Counted from the first letter of the stretch, positions 1 through 5,338 are shown. The stretch is 5,338 nt of DNA from a bacterium (GCA_020061125.1 JAGUYV010000424.1:1-5338); one strand, 5' to 3'. The notes: generated by a model not told the origin, from the letters alone. Program-made: numbers and translations.

Positions 1-171
1 CTGCGCGCGGTTGTGGGCCATCTCGAAGCCGCGCTACAATATGACAAGAGCGATTGCGACACATATAAAATCCTGGTGAGGGCGCAGGCCGGACTCGGCA
101 ACCCGGCCGCGGCCCGCAAATACGCGGACTCACACGCGGAATGCATGCGCGCACAGTATGATATTCGTTAA
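1..171 (+). CDS. C-terminal end of a TPR-like protein (partial, 5' end outside the window)
   Basis: Frame 1 is open from the first base to the TAA at 169-171 and gives 56 residues. The segment AALQYDKSDCDTYKILVRAQ followed by AGLGNPAAARKYADSHAE has the spacing of a tetratricopeptide-type helical pair: small residues at the helix-packing positions, a Leu-Gly-Asn turn, then an Ala-rich second helix. TPR domains are protein-protein interaction scaffolds, and they also end many larger bacterial proteins, including some glycosyltransferases and membrane proteins, so the role of the whole protein cannot be read from this piece. The last 14 bases overlap the start of the radical SAM gene, which suggests a shared mRNA and translational coupling. 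Confidence that this is coding is good because of the fit with the downstream overlap; confidence in the TPR label is moderate because only about one repeat is visible. Confidence 0.7.
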   Translation: MRAVVGHLEAALQYDKSDCDTYKILVRAQAGLGNPAAARKYADSHAECMRAQYDIR

Positions 172-1534
172 TCCGGACTGCTATCAGGGATTCCGATTCC
201 CGTCTCTGGGCATGTTGAGCATTGCCGCGAGCCTGCGCGCCAATGGCCTGCCCGCGCACTATGTGGACTGCAATTTCGAGCCGGACTGGAAGCAGCGTCT
301 GGCCGCGCTCGTGCGCGAGGATTCCCTGATCGGCATCACCGCCAACATCCTGTCCATCAAGCCCGCGCTGGAGCTGTCGCGCCACATCCGCGCCGCGCAC
401 CCCGATGCGCGCATCGTCATGGGCGGCCCGTATCCCACCGTGGAATACAAAAAGCTCATTCCCGAAGCCGCGGACATCGTGGTTCTGGGCGAAGGCGAGG
501 ACATCACCGCGCGCCTGGCCCGCGGCGATGCGCTCGAACAGATCCCCTCCATCGCCTTTCGCGCCAACGGCGGCGCGGCCGCCAACCCCAGAACCGGACT
601 CATCATGGATCTGGACGCCCTGCCGTTCCCGGCGTGGGATCTCGGCACCATCCCGCGCTACCGCCTTCCCCACACACGCAAAAACCCGGTGCTGCCGGTG
701 ATGACCTCCCGCGGCTGCCCCTTCAACTGTATTTTCTGCGGCTCGGACATCATCAACGGAAACCGCATCCGCTACCGCAGCGTGGACAGCGTGCTGGCCG
801 AGATAGACCGCATGGTCAACAGCTACGGCGTGCGCGAAATCCAGTTCTGGGACGACAACTTCACGCTTAACAAAAACCGGGCCATGGAACTGTGCGAGGG
901 CATTATCCGCGCCGGGCACAAGGGCCTGTGCCTGTCCATCCCCAGCGGCATCAAGCCCGACCACGGCGACGACGAACTGTTCCGGACCATGGCCCGCGCC
1001 GGGTTCTACTTCGTGTGCATCGCCGTGGAAAGCGGCTCCCAGGAAGTCATGAGCCAGCTCGGCAAAAAAGTGGATGTCAGCAAAGTGCGCGAAACCATCC
1101 GGTCCGTGCGCCACGCCGGCATCCTGACCAACGGATTCTTCATGATCGGCCTGCCGTTCGACACGCGCGAAACCATGGAGCAGACCATCGCCTTCGCGCG
1201 ATCCCTGCCCCTGCACCAGGCCCTGTTCTTCATCACCATCCCGTTCCCGGGCACGGACCTGCACCGTCTCGTATCCGAAAAGGGCCGGTTCCTTTACAGC
1301 GACGAGCAGCAGCTTTACGAAGACGGATATTTCATGGGCCGCGCCTCGTACGAGATGCCGGGCCGGTTCGACGCCGCGCTCGTCGAGGCCATGTACAAAA
1401 AAGCCTACCGCTCGTTTTTCCTCCAGCCCGGCCGCCTCGCGGCCCTGGCCCTCAAACGCATTCGCAGCCCAAAAGACATTTACTACCTCCTGATCAAGGG
1501 CCTCAAGGTCCTGTTCAAGGGACGGCAGTTTTAA
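158..1534 (+). CDS. B12-binding-domain radical SAM protein (BchE-like superfamily, substrate unknown)
   Basis: The protein has 458 residues, a usual length for cobalamin-binding radical SAM enzymes. Residues 1-130 form the N-terminal Rossmann-like B12-binding region: it opens with IFVNPDCYQG and PSLGMLSIAASLRANG, then has MGGPYPTV (88-95) and VVLGEGE (108-114), all typical of the family. No DxHxxG motif is seen, as in many members, so base-off cobalamin binding is the expectation. The radical SAM core spans about 178-390. It carries the [4Fe-4S] cluster motif C187-x3-C191-x2-C194, FWDDNF (230-235), ESGSQ (291-295), GLPFDTRETM from 331 and PFPGT (362-366). The tail to 458 is Lys/Arg-rich. Such enzymes use S-adenosylmethionine and often cobalamin for methylations, cyclisations or rearrangements; the substrate here is unknown. 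The ATG at 158 is favoured because the family N-terminus begins right there, although no strong Shine-Dalgarno precedes it. Translation is probably coupled to the upstream gene. A hydrolase follows after 17 bases. Confidence 0.93.
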   Translation: MIFVNPDCYQGFRFPSLGMLSIAASLRANGLPAHYVDCNFEPDWKQRLAALVREDSLIGITANILSIKPALELSRHIRAAHPDARIVMGGPYPTVEYKKLIPEAADIVVLGEGEDITARLARGDALEQIPSIAFRANGGAAANPRTGLIMDLDALPFPAWDLGTIPRYRLPHTRKNPVLPVMTSRGCPFNCIFCGSDIINGNRIRYRSVDSVLAEIDRMVNSYGVREIQFWDDNFTLNKNRAMELCEGIIRAGHKGLCLSIPSGIKPDHGDDELFRTMARAGFYFVCIAVESGSQEVMSQLGKKVDVSKVRETIRSVRHAGILTNGFFMIGLPFDTRETMEQTIAFARSLPLHQALFFITIPFPGTDLHRLVSEKGRFLYSDEQQLYEDGYFMGRASYEMPGRFDAALVEAMYKKAYRSFFLQPGRLAALALKRIRSPKDIYYLLIKGLKVLFKGRQF

Positions 1535-1538
1535 TCAC

Positions 1539-1545
1539 GGAGGGG
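1539..1545 (+). promoter_or_regulatory. Strong Shine-Dalgarno site of the alpha/beta hydrolase gene
   Basis: GGAGGGG lies six bases before the ATG at 1552. This site fixes the start of the hydrolase, because the same reading frame stays open far upstream (to about 892) through the radical SAM gene and could mislead start calling. Confidence 0.85.
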
Positions 1546-1551
1546 ACGCCC

Positions 1552-2502
1552 ATGAAACGCGCGATCAAAATTATTGCCGCTCTGGTTTTTCTGCTTGCCG
1601 TGTTTGTGCTCGTGTTCCCATTTTTCCGCCGCGACCTGGAGAACATGAACGGGAAGATGGCCGCCGGAGACGATGCGCAGTTTGTGCAGATGCCGGACAA
1701 AACCTGGATGCACTATGTCGAGCGCGGAAGCGGGGATGAGACCCTCATTCTGATCCACGGGTTCTGTTCGTCAACCTACACATGGAAAGACGCGATTGGC
1801 CCGCTGTCTGAAAAATACCGCGTGTACGCCATTGATCTGCCGGGTTTCGGATTCAGCGACAAGCCCGCGGATTTTTCCTACGATTACGAGAACTTCGCGC
1901 ACGCGGTGCGGCGGTTCATGGACGCCAAAGGCATCAAGCGGGCTTCGTTCGCGGGCAACTCCATGGGCGGCGGCGTGACCGTGAAATTCGCGGCCCTGTA
2001 CCCGCAGCGCGTGGACCGGGTGATCCTGGTGGACAGCGCCGGGTATCCGCATCACGGCAGGGGCGCCGCGCCCCTCAAGCTCCTCGGCATGCCCGTGCTG
2101 GGCCGGTTCCTGTTCAGCCTCAACGCGCCCGCGCCCATGAAGATCATCCTCCAGCGCACCAGCTTCCACGACGACTCCAAAGTCACGGACGAACGCGCCG
2201 AGGCTTACTTCCAGCCGTTCCGTGTGCATGGCGCATCCCGCGCGGCGCAGAACGCCATCAAGAGCATCGGCGGCGCGTCCCTGCGGGACGATGTGACGAA
2301 AATCACGGCCCCCGCTCTCATCGTCTGGGGCGAAAACGACGAACTGATACCCCCGGAATCCGCAAAGCAGTTCCATAAGGATCTCAAAGGTTCCAAACTG
2401 GTGACGATTCCCTCTTGCGGGCATCTCCCCGAGGAGGAAAAGCCGCAGGAGTTTGTTTCCGCGGTCCTGGATTTCATGGGCGACGCGCCCGCGGGCAGGT
2501 GA
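1552..2502 (+). CDS. Membrane-anchored alpha/beta-fold hydrolase
   Basis: The product has 316 residues. The N-terminus is basic (K2, R3, K6), followed by a hydrophobic segment at about 7-25, then R26-R27. No clear signal peptidase site follows, so a signal anchor with the catalytic domain outside the cytoplasm is likely; this topology is inferred. The rest is a canonical alpha/beta hydrolase: oxyanion-region H69-G70 in LILIHGF, the strand and loop VYAIDLPGFGFSDKP, nucleophile S137 in GNSMGG, acid D263 in LIVWGENDE, and base H291 in PSCGHLPEEEKP. The triad is complete. The motifs are those of the broad epoxide hydrolase, haloalkane dehalogenase and esterase group. The Ser nucleophile argues against dehalogenase or epoxide hydrolase chemistry, which uses Asp, and favours esterase, lipase or C-C hydrolase activity. 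The cap region (about 165-235) gives no substrate clue. It follows the radical SAM gene by 17 bases and is very probably cotranscribed with it. Confidence 0.93.
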   Translation: MKRAIKIIAALVFLLAVFVLVFPFFRRDLENMNGKMAAGDDAQFVQMPDKTWMHYVERGSGDETLILIHGFCSSTYTWKDAIGPLSEKYRVYAIDLPGFGFSDKPADFSYDYENFAHAVRRFMDAKGIKRASFAGNSMGGGVTVKFAALYPQRVDRVILVDSAGYPHHGRGAAPLKLLGMPVLGRFLFSLNAPAPMKIILQRTSFHDDSKVTDERAEAYFQPFRVHGASRAAQNAIKSIGGASLRDDVTKITAPALIVWGENDELIPPESAKQFHKDLKGSKLVTIPSCGHLPEEEKPQEFVSAVLDFMGDAPAGR

Positions 2503-2514
2503 CGCCGCCTTTTT
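2479..2514 (+). terminator. Possible weak intrinsic terminator at the end of the hydrolase gene
   Basis: GGCGACGC (2479-2486) can pair with GTGACGCC (2499-2506), with one A/A mismatch and one G-U pair. The 12-base loop is itself GC-rich and contains the palindrome GCCCGCGGGC. A run of five T (2510-2514) follows after three bases. The stem overlaps the TGA stop. The imperfect stem and short T tract make this tentative. If real, it would separate the upstream operon from the VIT/vWA gene. The rest of the gap to 2634 shows no convincing promoter to my eye. Confidence 0.3.
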
Positions 2515-2634
2515 CGCCACACGGCGGAACATTCGGCGCGCCCGCCTGTCTGAACCAGCATAGCCCCGGAACATGCGGATGCCACAGTGTAAGATTCCGC
2601 GGACCGGCGCAATCATCTCACAGGATTCGCCCGA

Positions 2635-2640
2635 AAGGAG
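2635..2640 (+). promoter_or_regulatory. Shine-Dalgarno site that fixes the start of the VIT/vWA gene
   Basis: AAGGAG lies 10 bases upstream of the ATG at 2651. An in-frame ATG at 2573 would add 26 residues with no hydrophobic character in front of a textbook signal peptide, and it has no comparable ribosome site. The start at 2651 is therefore preferred. Confidence 0.75.
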
Positions 2641-2650
2641 AGCAGCAATT

Positions 2651-4867
2651 ATGAAAAGACCGTTGCTGACTGGAATGCTGATTTTCATGGCGCTGGCGTT
2701 CGCCGCAAGCATGGCGCGCGCTGACGGCATCCTGGTGCCAGGCCACTGGCCCCCGCCCCACGATGTGATCGTCGAACCCCTGCCCGCTTTCGCCATCAAG
2801 TACCACCATGTGAAAGTGGACATCGAGGGCCAGCTCGCCAAAACGCACATTGACCAGGTGTTCATCAACCAGGTGAACCGCGAGATCGAGGGCACCTACC
2901 TGTTCCCCATCCCCGAGGGCGCGGCCATCAAGGATTTCAAGATGTGGATGAACAACGAGCCGATCCCCGGAAAAGTGCTGGACAAGGACGAGGCGCGCCG
3001 CATCTACGAGGCCATCGTGCGCCAGCGCAAGGACCCCGGCCTGCTCGAATATGTGGACCGCGGCCTGTTCCGCGCCAGCGTGTTCCCCATCCCGGCCAAC
3101 GGCGAGCAGCGCATCGAAATCGAATACACCGAGATGTTGACGAAAAACAACAACACCGTGCCCTACACCTACCCGCTCAACACCGAGCGCTTTTCCTCAA
3201 AGCCCATCAACGATGTCACCATCTCCGTGAACATCCATTCCAAAATCCCCATCAAAAATGTGTACTCGCCCACGCACACCGTGAGCGTGCGCCGGCCGGA
3301 CAACAACACCGCGGCCATTTCCTACGAGGAAGCGAACACCCGGCCCAACATTGATTTTTCGATCTACTACAGCCTTAGCGAAGACGACATCGGCTTGAGC
3401 CTTCTGACCTGGAAGCCCAAAGGCGAGGACGGGTACTTCATGTTCCTGGCCGCGCCCCCGGCCGAAGTGCAGGAAAAGGAAGTGGCGGCCAAGGATGTGG
3501 TGTTCGTGTTCGACCGCACCGGCTCCATGAGCGGCGATAAAATCGAGCAGGCGCGCGAGGCCCTCAAGTTCTCCCTGCGCAACCTCAACGCCAAAGACCG
3601 CTTCAATGTGGTCACATTCAATGAAACCCCGGAACCGCTGTTCGACAAGATGCAGCCCGCCACCAAAGCCAACATAGACAAGGCCCTGGAAATGGCCGGC
3701 GCGCTCACGGCCGTGGGCGGCACCAACATTGACGAGGCGCTCACCAAATCCGCGCCCATGCTCACCGACAAGTCGCGCCCGTCATTCATTCTGTTCCTCA
3801 CCGACGGACTGCCCACCGTGGGCGTGACCGATGTGGACCAGATCCTCGCGGATGTGCAGAAAGCCATGCCCAAGTTCGCACGCGTGTTCGTGTTCGGCGT
3901 GGGCTACGATGTCAACACTTTCCTGCTGGACAAGATGGCGGGCAACCACAACGGCGTGCCCGAATATGTGCGGCCCGGCGAAGACCTCGAGGTCAAGGTC
4001 TCGGCCCTGTACCGCAAGATCAGCTATCCCATCCTTGCGAACCTCGAAATAGACTGGGGCGCCATGCGGCCCTACGACATCTTCCCGGGCAAGCTGCCCG
4101 ACCTGTTCAAGGGATCGCAGATCATCCTGGCCGGCCGGTTCAAGGGCAGCGGCACGGCCAAAGTCAAGCTCACCGGAGAAGCCCAGGGCAAAAAGGAATC
4201 CTTCACGCTGACCCAGAACCTGTCGGACACCATGCCGCTGAACGACTTCATTCCCACCCTGTGGGCGCAGCGCAAGATCAACTTCCTGCTCGCCGAAATC
4301 CGCCTCAAGGGGCACAACAAGGAACTGGTGGACGAAGTCATCCGCTTGAGCAAACAGTTCGGCATCATCACGGAATACACCTCGTTCCTGGTGGAAGAGC
4401 CGGGCATGGTGTCGTCCGAGGAGTTTGAGGAACGCGCATTAAGTTCGTTCGACCGCGCGGCAGCGCCCAAGATGAAGCGAGAGAGCGGCGGCTCGGCCGT
4501 GAACCAGAGCGTGAACCTTGCGGCCGGACAGTCGGCCACCACGGCCAACATCGGCGTGCAGGGCTACTACGACGAGGACGGCAGCATGGTGAGCATCAGC
4601 CAGGTGCAACAGGCCGGAGACCGCGTGTTCTTCCAGCAGGGCCGCGTGTGGGTTGAAAATACCTACAACGATAAAATGGAAGTGCTCAAGGTCAAGGCCT
4701 TCAGCGAAGCGCAGTTCCAATTGCTGGCCAGAGACCCGTCGCTCGGCAAGTACATGTCTGTGGGCGAGGAAGTCATCATCATGGTCAATGGCCAGGCCGT
4801 GCAGATCGGCGCCGAGGGCCAGGACACCTTGAGCGACAAGGATCTCAAGAAGCTGTTCGGCTCGTAA
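2651..4867 (+). CDS. Exported VIT domain and von Willebrand factor A domain protein
   Basis: The product has 738 residues. A Sec signal peptide (1-24) shows K2-R3, a hydrophobic core and a likely cleavage after ARA24. The VIT (vault/inter-alpha-trypsin) domain spans about 45-162, with EGTYLFPIPEGAAI and RQRKDPGLLEYVDRGLFRAS followed by a second FPIP. The vWA domain spans about 283-465. Its metal-ion-dependent adhesion site is complete: D288-R-T290-G-S292-M, T358 in GGTN, and D385 in FLTDG, with Thr instead of the first Ser. A family-typical segment from LW (537-538) through ELVDEV to EYTSFLVEE (575-583) follows. Then come a low-complexity Gly/Ser/Gln/Ala linker (about 601-655) and a C-terminal domain (656-738) with VFFQQGRVWVENTY near W667. 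There is no C-terminal membrane helix or sorting motif, so it is probably periplasmic or secreted. VIT/vWA proteins are thought to bind proteins in a metal-dependent way; the partner here is unknown. It is followed by two terminators and appears monocistronic. Confidence 0.93.
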   Translation: MKRPLLTGMLIFMALAFAASMARADGILVPGHWPPPHDVIVEPLPAFAIKYHHVKVDIEGQLAKTHIDQVFINQVNREIEGTYLFPIPEGAAIKDFKMWMNNEPIPGKVLDKDEARRIYEAIVRQRKDPGLLEYVDRGLFRASVFPIPANGEQRIEIEYTEMLTKNNNTVPYTYPLNTERFSSKPINDVTISVNIHSKIPIKNVYSPTHTVSVRRPDNNTAAISYEEANTRPNIDFSIYYSLSEDDIGLSLLTWKPKGEDGYFMFLAAPPAEVQEKEVAAKDVVFVFDRTGSMSGDKIEQAREALKFSLRNLNAKDRFNVVTFNETPEPLFDKMQPATKANIDKALEMAGALTAVGGTNIDEALTKSAPMLTDKSRPSFILFLTDGLPTVGVTDVDQILADVQKAMPKFARVFVFGVGYDVNTFLLDKMAGNHNGVPEYVRPGEDLEVKVSALYRKISYPILANLEIDWGAMRPYDIFPGKLPDLFKGSQIILAGRFKGSGTAKVKLTGEAQGKKESFTLTQNLSDTMPLNDFIPTLWAQRKINFLLAEIRLKGHNKELVDEVIRLSKQFGIITEYTSFLVEEPGMVSSEEFEERALSSFDRAAAPKMKRESGGSAVNQSVNLAAGQSATTANIGVQGYYDEDGSMVSISQVQQAGDRVFFQQGRVWVENTYNDKMEVLKVKAFSEAQFQLLARDPSLGKYMSVGEEVIIMVNGQAVQIGAEGQDTLSDKDLKKLFGS

Positions 4868-4903
4868 TTCCGCGCGCCGGCAGACGACAGACGACGCGAC
4901 ATC

Positions 4904-4950
4904 AAAACGCCGGCCTGCGGCACAGCGGGCCGGCGTTTTCTTTCTCTGTT
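4904..4950 (+). terminator. Strong intrinsic terminator of the VIT/vWA gene
   Basis: A perfect 12-base inverted repeat, AAAACGCCGGCC (4904-4915) with GGCCGGCGTTTT (4928-4939), can be extended inward by U-G, G-C and C-G pairs to leave a six-base loop (4919-4924). The right arm runs into the pyrimidine-rich tract TTTTCTTTCTCTGTT (4936-4950). It starts 36 bases after the stop codon at 4865-4867. The A run on the left arm is only four bases long, so a reverse-direction role is weak. Confidence 0.88.
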
Positions 4951-4959
4951 AAGAATCTG

Positions 4960-4984
4960 CCGCGCTGCGTGGCGCGGGTTTTTT
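4960..4984 (+). terminator. Second, tandem intrinsic terminator
   Basis: CCGCGC (4960-4965) pairs with GCGCGG (4972-4977) around a six-base loop. One G follows, then six T (4979-4984). It lies about ten bases after the tract of the first terminator. It probably catches read-through before the next promoter. Confidence 0.7.
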
Positions 4985-4985
4985 G

Positions 4986-5015
4986 TTGCCGCGGGCGAGG
5001 CGCGCAGGATATACT
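4986..5015 (+). promoter_or_regulatory. Sigma70-like promoter for the downstream gene
   Basis: TTGCCG (4986-4991, four of six matches to TTGACA) and TATACT (5010-5015, five of six matches to TATAAT) are separated by 18 bases. The -35 begins two bases after the T run of the second terminator. A start about seven bases after the -10 falls at or next to base 5022, the A of the ATG of the next gene, so the transcript could be leaderless. AGGA at 5006-5009 is a possible ribosome site but overlaps the promoter and sits 12 bases from the ATG. Confidence 0.5.
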
Positions 5016-5021
5016 CAAAAC

Positions 5022-5338
5022 ATGAACCGTGAGGCCGGAACACAGTGGGCCGGATACACCGTGGCCGAGTTCGAGCGCATGATGGCGCAGGAGGATTTCG
5101 TGATGCTGTCCGAATGGGACGGCGCGCGCGGTCGCATGCGCATGCTGTGCGAGCTGGATCCGAACGCGTGGTTCCAGTCCGGCTGTCTGATCTGGGATGT
5201 GCAGGAGCGGCTGGAAAACACGCCGGAGATGCCGTTTGGCGCATACCGGCTCGAGATGCGCGCGGGGCGCGGCGCGCTGCCAACGCTCAAGAACGCGCTG
5301 CCCACGCACATGGCCGGCGCCGTGGAGCCGGACAGCGC
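5022..5338 (+). CDS. Unrecognised protein, N-terminal part (runs off the window end)
   Basis: An ATG at 5022 opens a frame with no stop to the last base, giving 105 residues. It begins MNREAGTQWAGYTVAEFERM and continues with an acidic, Trp- and Met-containing stretch (EWDGARGRMRMLCELDPNAW, then SGCLIWDVQERLENTPEMPF). There is no signal peptide or membrane helix, so a cytoplasmic protein is likely. I do not recognise the family. Support for coding comes from the open frame directly after a terminator pair and a good promoter match, the mixed amino acid composition, and a GAT-GTG codon pair that follows the same rule as in the other genes here. Opposite-strand open frames over this region translate to Arg/Ala/Ser/Pro-rich sequence and look like shadows. 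Met20, Met21 or Met28 are alternative starts. Confidence 0.65.
   Translation, partial: MNREAGTQWAGYTVAEFERMMAQEDFVMLSEWDGARGRMRMLCELDPNAWFQSGCLIWDVQERLENTPEMPFGAYRLEMRAGRGALPTLKNALPTHMAGAVEPDS

Follow-up and report, generated by a model that had tools for sequence, protein, structure and literature searches.

Near-absence of the palindrome ACGT across a GC-rich bacterial genome points to selection against the word

Introduction

A 5,338-nucleotide stretch of DNA from an uncultured bacterium (contig C297 of genome G000, positions 1–5338; GCA_020061125.1, JAGUYV010000424.1), referred to here as the window, does not contain the tetranucleotide ACGT. This locus raises the questions of whether the absence belongs to the stretch or to the ACGT-poor genome of which it is one contig, and whether the word was removed by selection or by mutation.

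Results and discussion

ACGT is absent from the window

The trinucleotide ACG occurred 94 times in the window (the first-pass annotation had counted about 92 by hand) and was followed by A in 35, C in 33 and G in 26 cases but, as that annotation had read, never by T. ACGT is a palindrome, and its zero count over 1–5338 covers both strands. The expected numbers were 18.5 from base composition, 14.8 from a first-order and 11.8 from a second-order Markov model. The complete absence first claimed is confirmed. The earlier expectation of about 17 rested on a T content of about 19%, which had to be corrected to 17.3%. With 11.8 sites expected, the Poisson probability of finding none was ~7e-6, and ACGT ranked as the most depleted of the 256 tetranucleotides. 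CTAG was missing too, as reported, though only 1.6–4.7 were expected; CTAA, GTAG, TAGG and TAGT were likewise absent, all four being tied to the rare CTA and TAG. GTAC, GATC, CATG, GGCC and TCGA were present, as previously noted, and ATGT (22 times) and ACAT (25 times) agreed with the estimate of about 20 or more each.

The window carries the following features, each of them free of ACGT:

158..1534, + strand: B12-binding radical SAM protein gene (ORF of 458 aa; PF04055, 9.1e-22; PF02310, 3.4e-15)
1600..2502 (start approximate), + strand: alpha/beta hydrolase gene (PF00561, 2.1e-35)
2573..4867, + strand: VIT/VWA-domain protein gene (ORF of 764 aa; PF08487, 5.9e-31; PF13768, 1e-18)
4983..5336, + strand: ORF cut by the contig end, with no family match

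The radical SAM, hydrolase and VIT/VWA genes are ordinary host genes. The VIT/VWA protein resembles marine sortase-target proteins, with a TIGR03788 score (309 bits) below the cut-off of 552.

The loss is genome-wide and confined to one genome of its order

The source genome G000 comprises 4.1 Mb in 513 contigs and is 79% complete. Direct reading covered 455 kb, and the ACGT counts therefore refer to 11% of the genome, while the count of GACGTC refers to all of it. After RNA genes and two phage-like contigs were set aside, the remaining 440 kb contained 18 ACGT, compared to 1019 expected under the second-order model (1.8% of expectation) and 1253 under the first-order model. ACGT was the most depleted tetranucleotide in this set, followed by CTAG at 0.15 of expectation. 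As a whole-genome proxy, GACGTC was compared with its reversed control CTGCAG, and the counts were 28 and 1168, respectively. Ordinary contigs of 10–20 kb carried no ACGT at all. The genome-wide effect proposed by the first-pass annotation was thus confirmed, and the rest of the genome did not show the normal ACGT frequency that would have made the window a local exception.

Strict intergenic DNA was also purged (0 ACGT, 10–17 expected), indicating that the effect operates at the DNA level. Words that differ by one base were normal, with no depletion of ACGC, GCGT, GCGC or TCGA, and the leftover ACGT sites had mixed flanks, suggesting that the target is ACGT itself.

Six relatives (G001–G006) belong to the same order as G000; the other genomes that we compared share only the domain. 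GACGTC occurred 628–1235 times in these relatives, and their direct ACGT counts, set against the Markov expectation as had been proposed, were near normal. The loss is therefore confined to G000 within its order and does not follow a general compositional rule.

Codons and amino-acid pairs are rewritten

The context of ACGT was further examined in 112,010 codon pairs of G000. Tyr, His, Asn and Asp codons that preceded Val were written NAT in 823 cases and NAC in 7, whereas before other G-starting codons NAC made up 81% (3838 NAC, 910 NAT). Similarly, Thr was encoded by ACG in 1 of 715 cases before T, compared to 38% before G. The Tyr-, His-, Asn- and Asp-Val pairs themselves were reduced to 0.72–0.86 of expectation in G000 (0.95–1.08 in the relatives), while the frequencies of Glu-, Lys- and Gln-Val pairs did not differ between G000 and the relatives, indicating that the proteins too have been slightly altered.

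ACGT persists in RNA genes and phage-like contigs

The 16S rRNA gene of G000 contained 6 ACGT (5.5–6.6 expected), one of which falls in the conserved GATGACGTCAAGTC stretch. Two more were found in the 3' part of the 23S rRNA gene and one in a tRNA gene. The two phage-like contigs together had 17 ACGT where 39 were expected (43%). One of them (C8, L014) encodes head, connector and tail proteins, and the other (C259, L063) encodes a Mor-type late activator, a phage amidase and an N4/N6-type methyltransferase. The cell thus tolerates ACGT in function-fixed RNA genes, which are not free to change, and in recent imports, and the retention there implies either that methylation shields these sites or that the enzyme has since been lost. 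Low-GC, foreign-looking windows of G000 contained 4 ACGT with 43–62 expected, suggesting that purging outpaces the drift towards host GC, with the reservation that some of these windows may be AT-rich intergenic DNA.

A cluster of three ACGT, spanning less than 400 bases, lies at a tRNA gene with adjoining lower-GC DNA (L009, G000:C3, 4545–4922) and is possibly a tRNA-linked insertion. Some ACGT sites lie near contig ends of L007 and L075; the ends were inspected for an adapter artefact, and no adapter was found.

A candidate restriction-modification operon

The search for a methyltransferase or restriction enzyme that the first-pass annotation had called for yielded one candidate set:

417–2871 of L062 (G000:C128): C5-methyltransferase, DUF4928 protein and Vsr endonuclease in tandem, from profile matches

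The methyltransferase matched PF00145 (5.7e-42) and scored above the cut-off of TIGR00675, and the DUF4928 protein matched PF16280 (2.5e-53) and the PADLOC REase_II model (1.7e-42). By these matches the set looks like a type II restriction-modification (R-M) operon. A search for a solved-structure relative of the DUF4928 protein found none. G000 further encodes three PF01555 methyltransferases, one of them on a phage-like contig.

The predicted operon is a candidate agent, but that it reads ACGT is a guess and rather doubtful. Its DNA is low in GC (0.48) and foreign-looking, which counts against the link. In favour of the link, the operon is ACGT-poor (1 site, ~5 expected) in comparison with its plasmid homologues (10–13 sites, ~6–8 expected); however, an operon merely resident in an ACGT-avoiding genome would look equally ACGT-poor. 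G323 was the sole genome found with a close copy (62% identity for the methyltransferase, 64% for the nuclease), and it had 3 ACGT where 28 were expected. This link rests on one other genome and is weakened by G191, a congener of G323 that is equally ACGT-poor with no match to the operon. A Vsr endonuclease with the same target would be expected to bring ACGT back, which also counts against the link. In five genomes of the phylum of G057, no close copies of the methyltransferase were found. Membership of the DUF4928 family was rejected as an indicator of ACGT loss in general, given that ACGT is at normal levels in distant carriers and in plasmid homologues. Operons homologous to the C128 set are carried by Pseudomonas and Azospirillum plasmids.

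No enzyme of proven specificity for ACGT turned up in G000, which is 79% complete; with about one fifth of the sequence absent, the true agent may be missing from the assembly.

ACGT loss recurs in unrelated genomes

Near-absence of ACGT was found in further genomes, with observed numbers compared to second-order expectations: 0 and 94 in G087, 0 and 90 in G019, 1 and 46 in G102, 0 and 22 in G028, 4 and 47 in G191, 3 and 28 in G323, 1 and 55 in G072, 1 and 17 in G050, and 0 and 11 in G047 (ACGT-poor loci L106–L110, L131–L147, L150, L171, L173 and L176). Most of these genomes were chosen for low GACGTC and do not represent a fair frequency sample. GACGTC was below 5% of its control in 10 of the 98 genomes searched, of which G084 and G088 were normal by direct count. 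GTCGAC was below 5% of its own reversed control in 8 of the same 98, and these eight equally low genomes ruled out ACGT as a uniquely lost word. Searches with PF00145 gave no match in the ACGT-poor genomes G019, G047, G050, G072 and G191, and a PF01555 search of G019 gave none either. A broader idea is that unrelated bacteria, G019 with its lack of matches among them, repeatedly shun ACGT under a widespread ACGT-targeting activity outside classical R-M; this seems to us improbable.

Selection, mutation and the likely agent

The first-pass annotation had named two causes, avoidance of an ACGT-cutting enzyme and mutational loss through a methylase. The former fits the data. In the latter, a C5-methyltransferase would mark ACGT, and deamination would convert it to ATGT or ACAT with no restriction pressure. 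Such a gene is encoded in G000, H. pylori lost ACGT largely by deamination (PMC10423294), and the shift from NAC to NAT before Val is a deamination change, although it is also the sole synonymous escape. The remaining Thr codons before T provided a test, in which a simple equilibrium model of deamination predicts an ACA share of ~0.585; the model assumes like third-base preferences across codon boxes and is approximate, but the gap to the observed share of 0.277 (198/714, 95% interval ±0.033) is nonetheless large. The observed share did not differ from the control of 0.257 obtained from the Ala, Pro and Ser boxes (p = 0.31). The product of deamination was thus not in excess in the Thr codons of G000 where ACG was lost before T, and ATGT and ACAT were just 12–13% above second-order expectation. 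To leave a residual of ~1%, the equilibrium model needs the rate to rise several hundredfold, and five other ACGT-poor genomes had no PF00145 match. Selection against ACGT explains the loss better than mutation, methylcytosine deamination is disfavoured as the main cause, and we consider purely mutational loss unlikely.

If the loss was selective, the pressure could come from an activity outside a classical R-M pair, such as a partnerless nuclease or an RNA-cutting toxin reading ACGU. The ACGT-free 20 kb of G019, with no PF00145 or PF01555 match, would suit such an agent, although the methyltransferase search in that genome covered these two families only. An active DNA nuclease with no protecting partner would be lethal given the ACGT in rRNA genes and phage-like contigs, and the purged strict intergenic DNA argues against a purely RNA-level cause; we judge this explanation as unlikely as mutational loss. 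A scar left by an ACGT enzyme that was long active and has since gone is less likely still. It would account for the toleration of intact rRNA sites and of phage-like contigs at 43% of expected ACGT, and traces that outlast a system have been described (PMC4687349). However, low-GC, foreign-looking windows were purged as well (4 sites, 43–62 expected), and with merely 18 sites accumulated in 440 kb any loss must be very recent. A lost system differs from a resident one solely in the present-day presence of the enzyme. A technical origin, in the assembly, the binning or a library step such as digestion at ACGT, might be suspected in a fragmented assembly of 513 contigs at 79% completeness, but it was refuted and its probability is negligible: ACGT is retained in the rRNA genes and phage-like contigs of this very assembly, the rewriting of synonymous codons depends on their context, and ordinary contigs of 10–20 kb are free of the word.

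From the genome-wide loss, the rewriting and the pattern of retention, we infer that long-lasting selection against ACGT at the DNA level, probably exerted by a long-resident ACGT-specific type II R-M system, accounts for the state of G000. Such a system would stay in the lineage until nearly all dispensable sites were replaced. Each site would carry a slight cost whenever methylation failed, and any base change removing it would be favoured. Function-fixed sites in rRNA and tRNA genes and recent imports such as phage-like contigs would remain.

Comparison with known systems

Avoidance of restriction sites of type II R-M systems grows with the time that a system has spent in a genome and can outlast the system (Rusinov et al. 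2015, PMC4687349). G000 shows the same genome-wide under-representation of a short palindrome, but its depletion is near-total (1.8% of expectation) and its agent is a candidate only. In Helicobacter pylori, the observed-to-expected ratio of ACGT in whole genomes is 0.05 (PMC3849833), and the depletion has been related to HpyCH4IV and Hpy99XI, and deamination is regarded there as a main driver (PMC3849833, PMC10423294). The two cases share the word, a similar strength and mostly synonymous changes, the loss in G000 being the more extreme. However, ACGT changed mainly to ATGT and ACAT in H. pylori, whereas G000, which is GC-rich and unrelated, has no excess of deamination products. MaeII of Methanococcus aeolicus cuts A^CGT and is associated with m5C (PMC10113651); as a type II system whose C5-methyltransferase reads ACGT, it is the kind of agent proposed here. 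The openly accessible literature, of which our coverage was partial, yielded no description of ACGT as a generally avoided word. On the favoured reading, G000 represents an extreme new instance of restriction-site avoidance and not a new kind of system.

The genome offers a natural experiment, in which a word has been purged to ~2% across 4 Mb of GC-rich DNA and a codon test separates selection from deamination. If restriction is the cause, G000 shows the extent to which such pressure can remodel a genome, amino-acid pairs included. The same near-loss in several unrelated genomes means that the responsible enzyme can be sought by comparison, and the higher ACGT in phage-like contigs could help to tell recent arrivals from host DNA in genomes of this kind.

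Other depleted palindromes

Avoidance of CTAG in bacteria usually has no connection with an R-M system. It resembles the loss of ACGT in being a genome-wide depletion of a palindromic tetranucleotide, but the low CTAG of G000 is shared with the same-order G001 and G005, whereas the loss of ACGT is confined to G000 within the order. CTAG was at 0.05–0.07 of expectation in G001 (L042–L045) and G005 (L055–L058) and near normal in G003 and G004. GATC was at 0.37–0.44 of expectation in G003, G004 and G006, which form one genus of the same order (L049–L054, L059, L061). Several palindromes are avoided together in a 15.6-kb locus of G009 (L190), where CTAG occurred 0 times (22 expected), GTAC 0 times (14 expected) and ACGT 5 times (24 expected).
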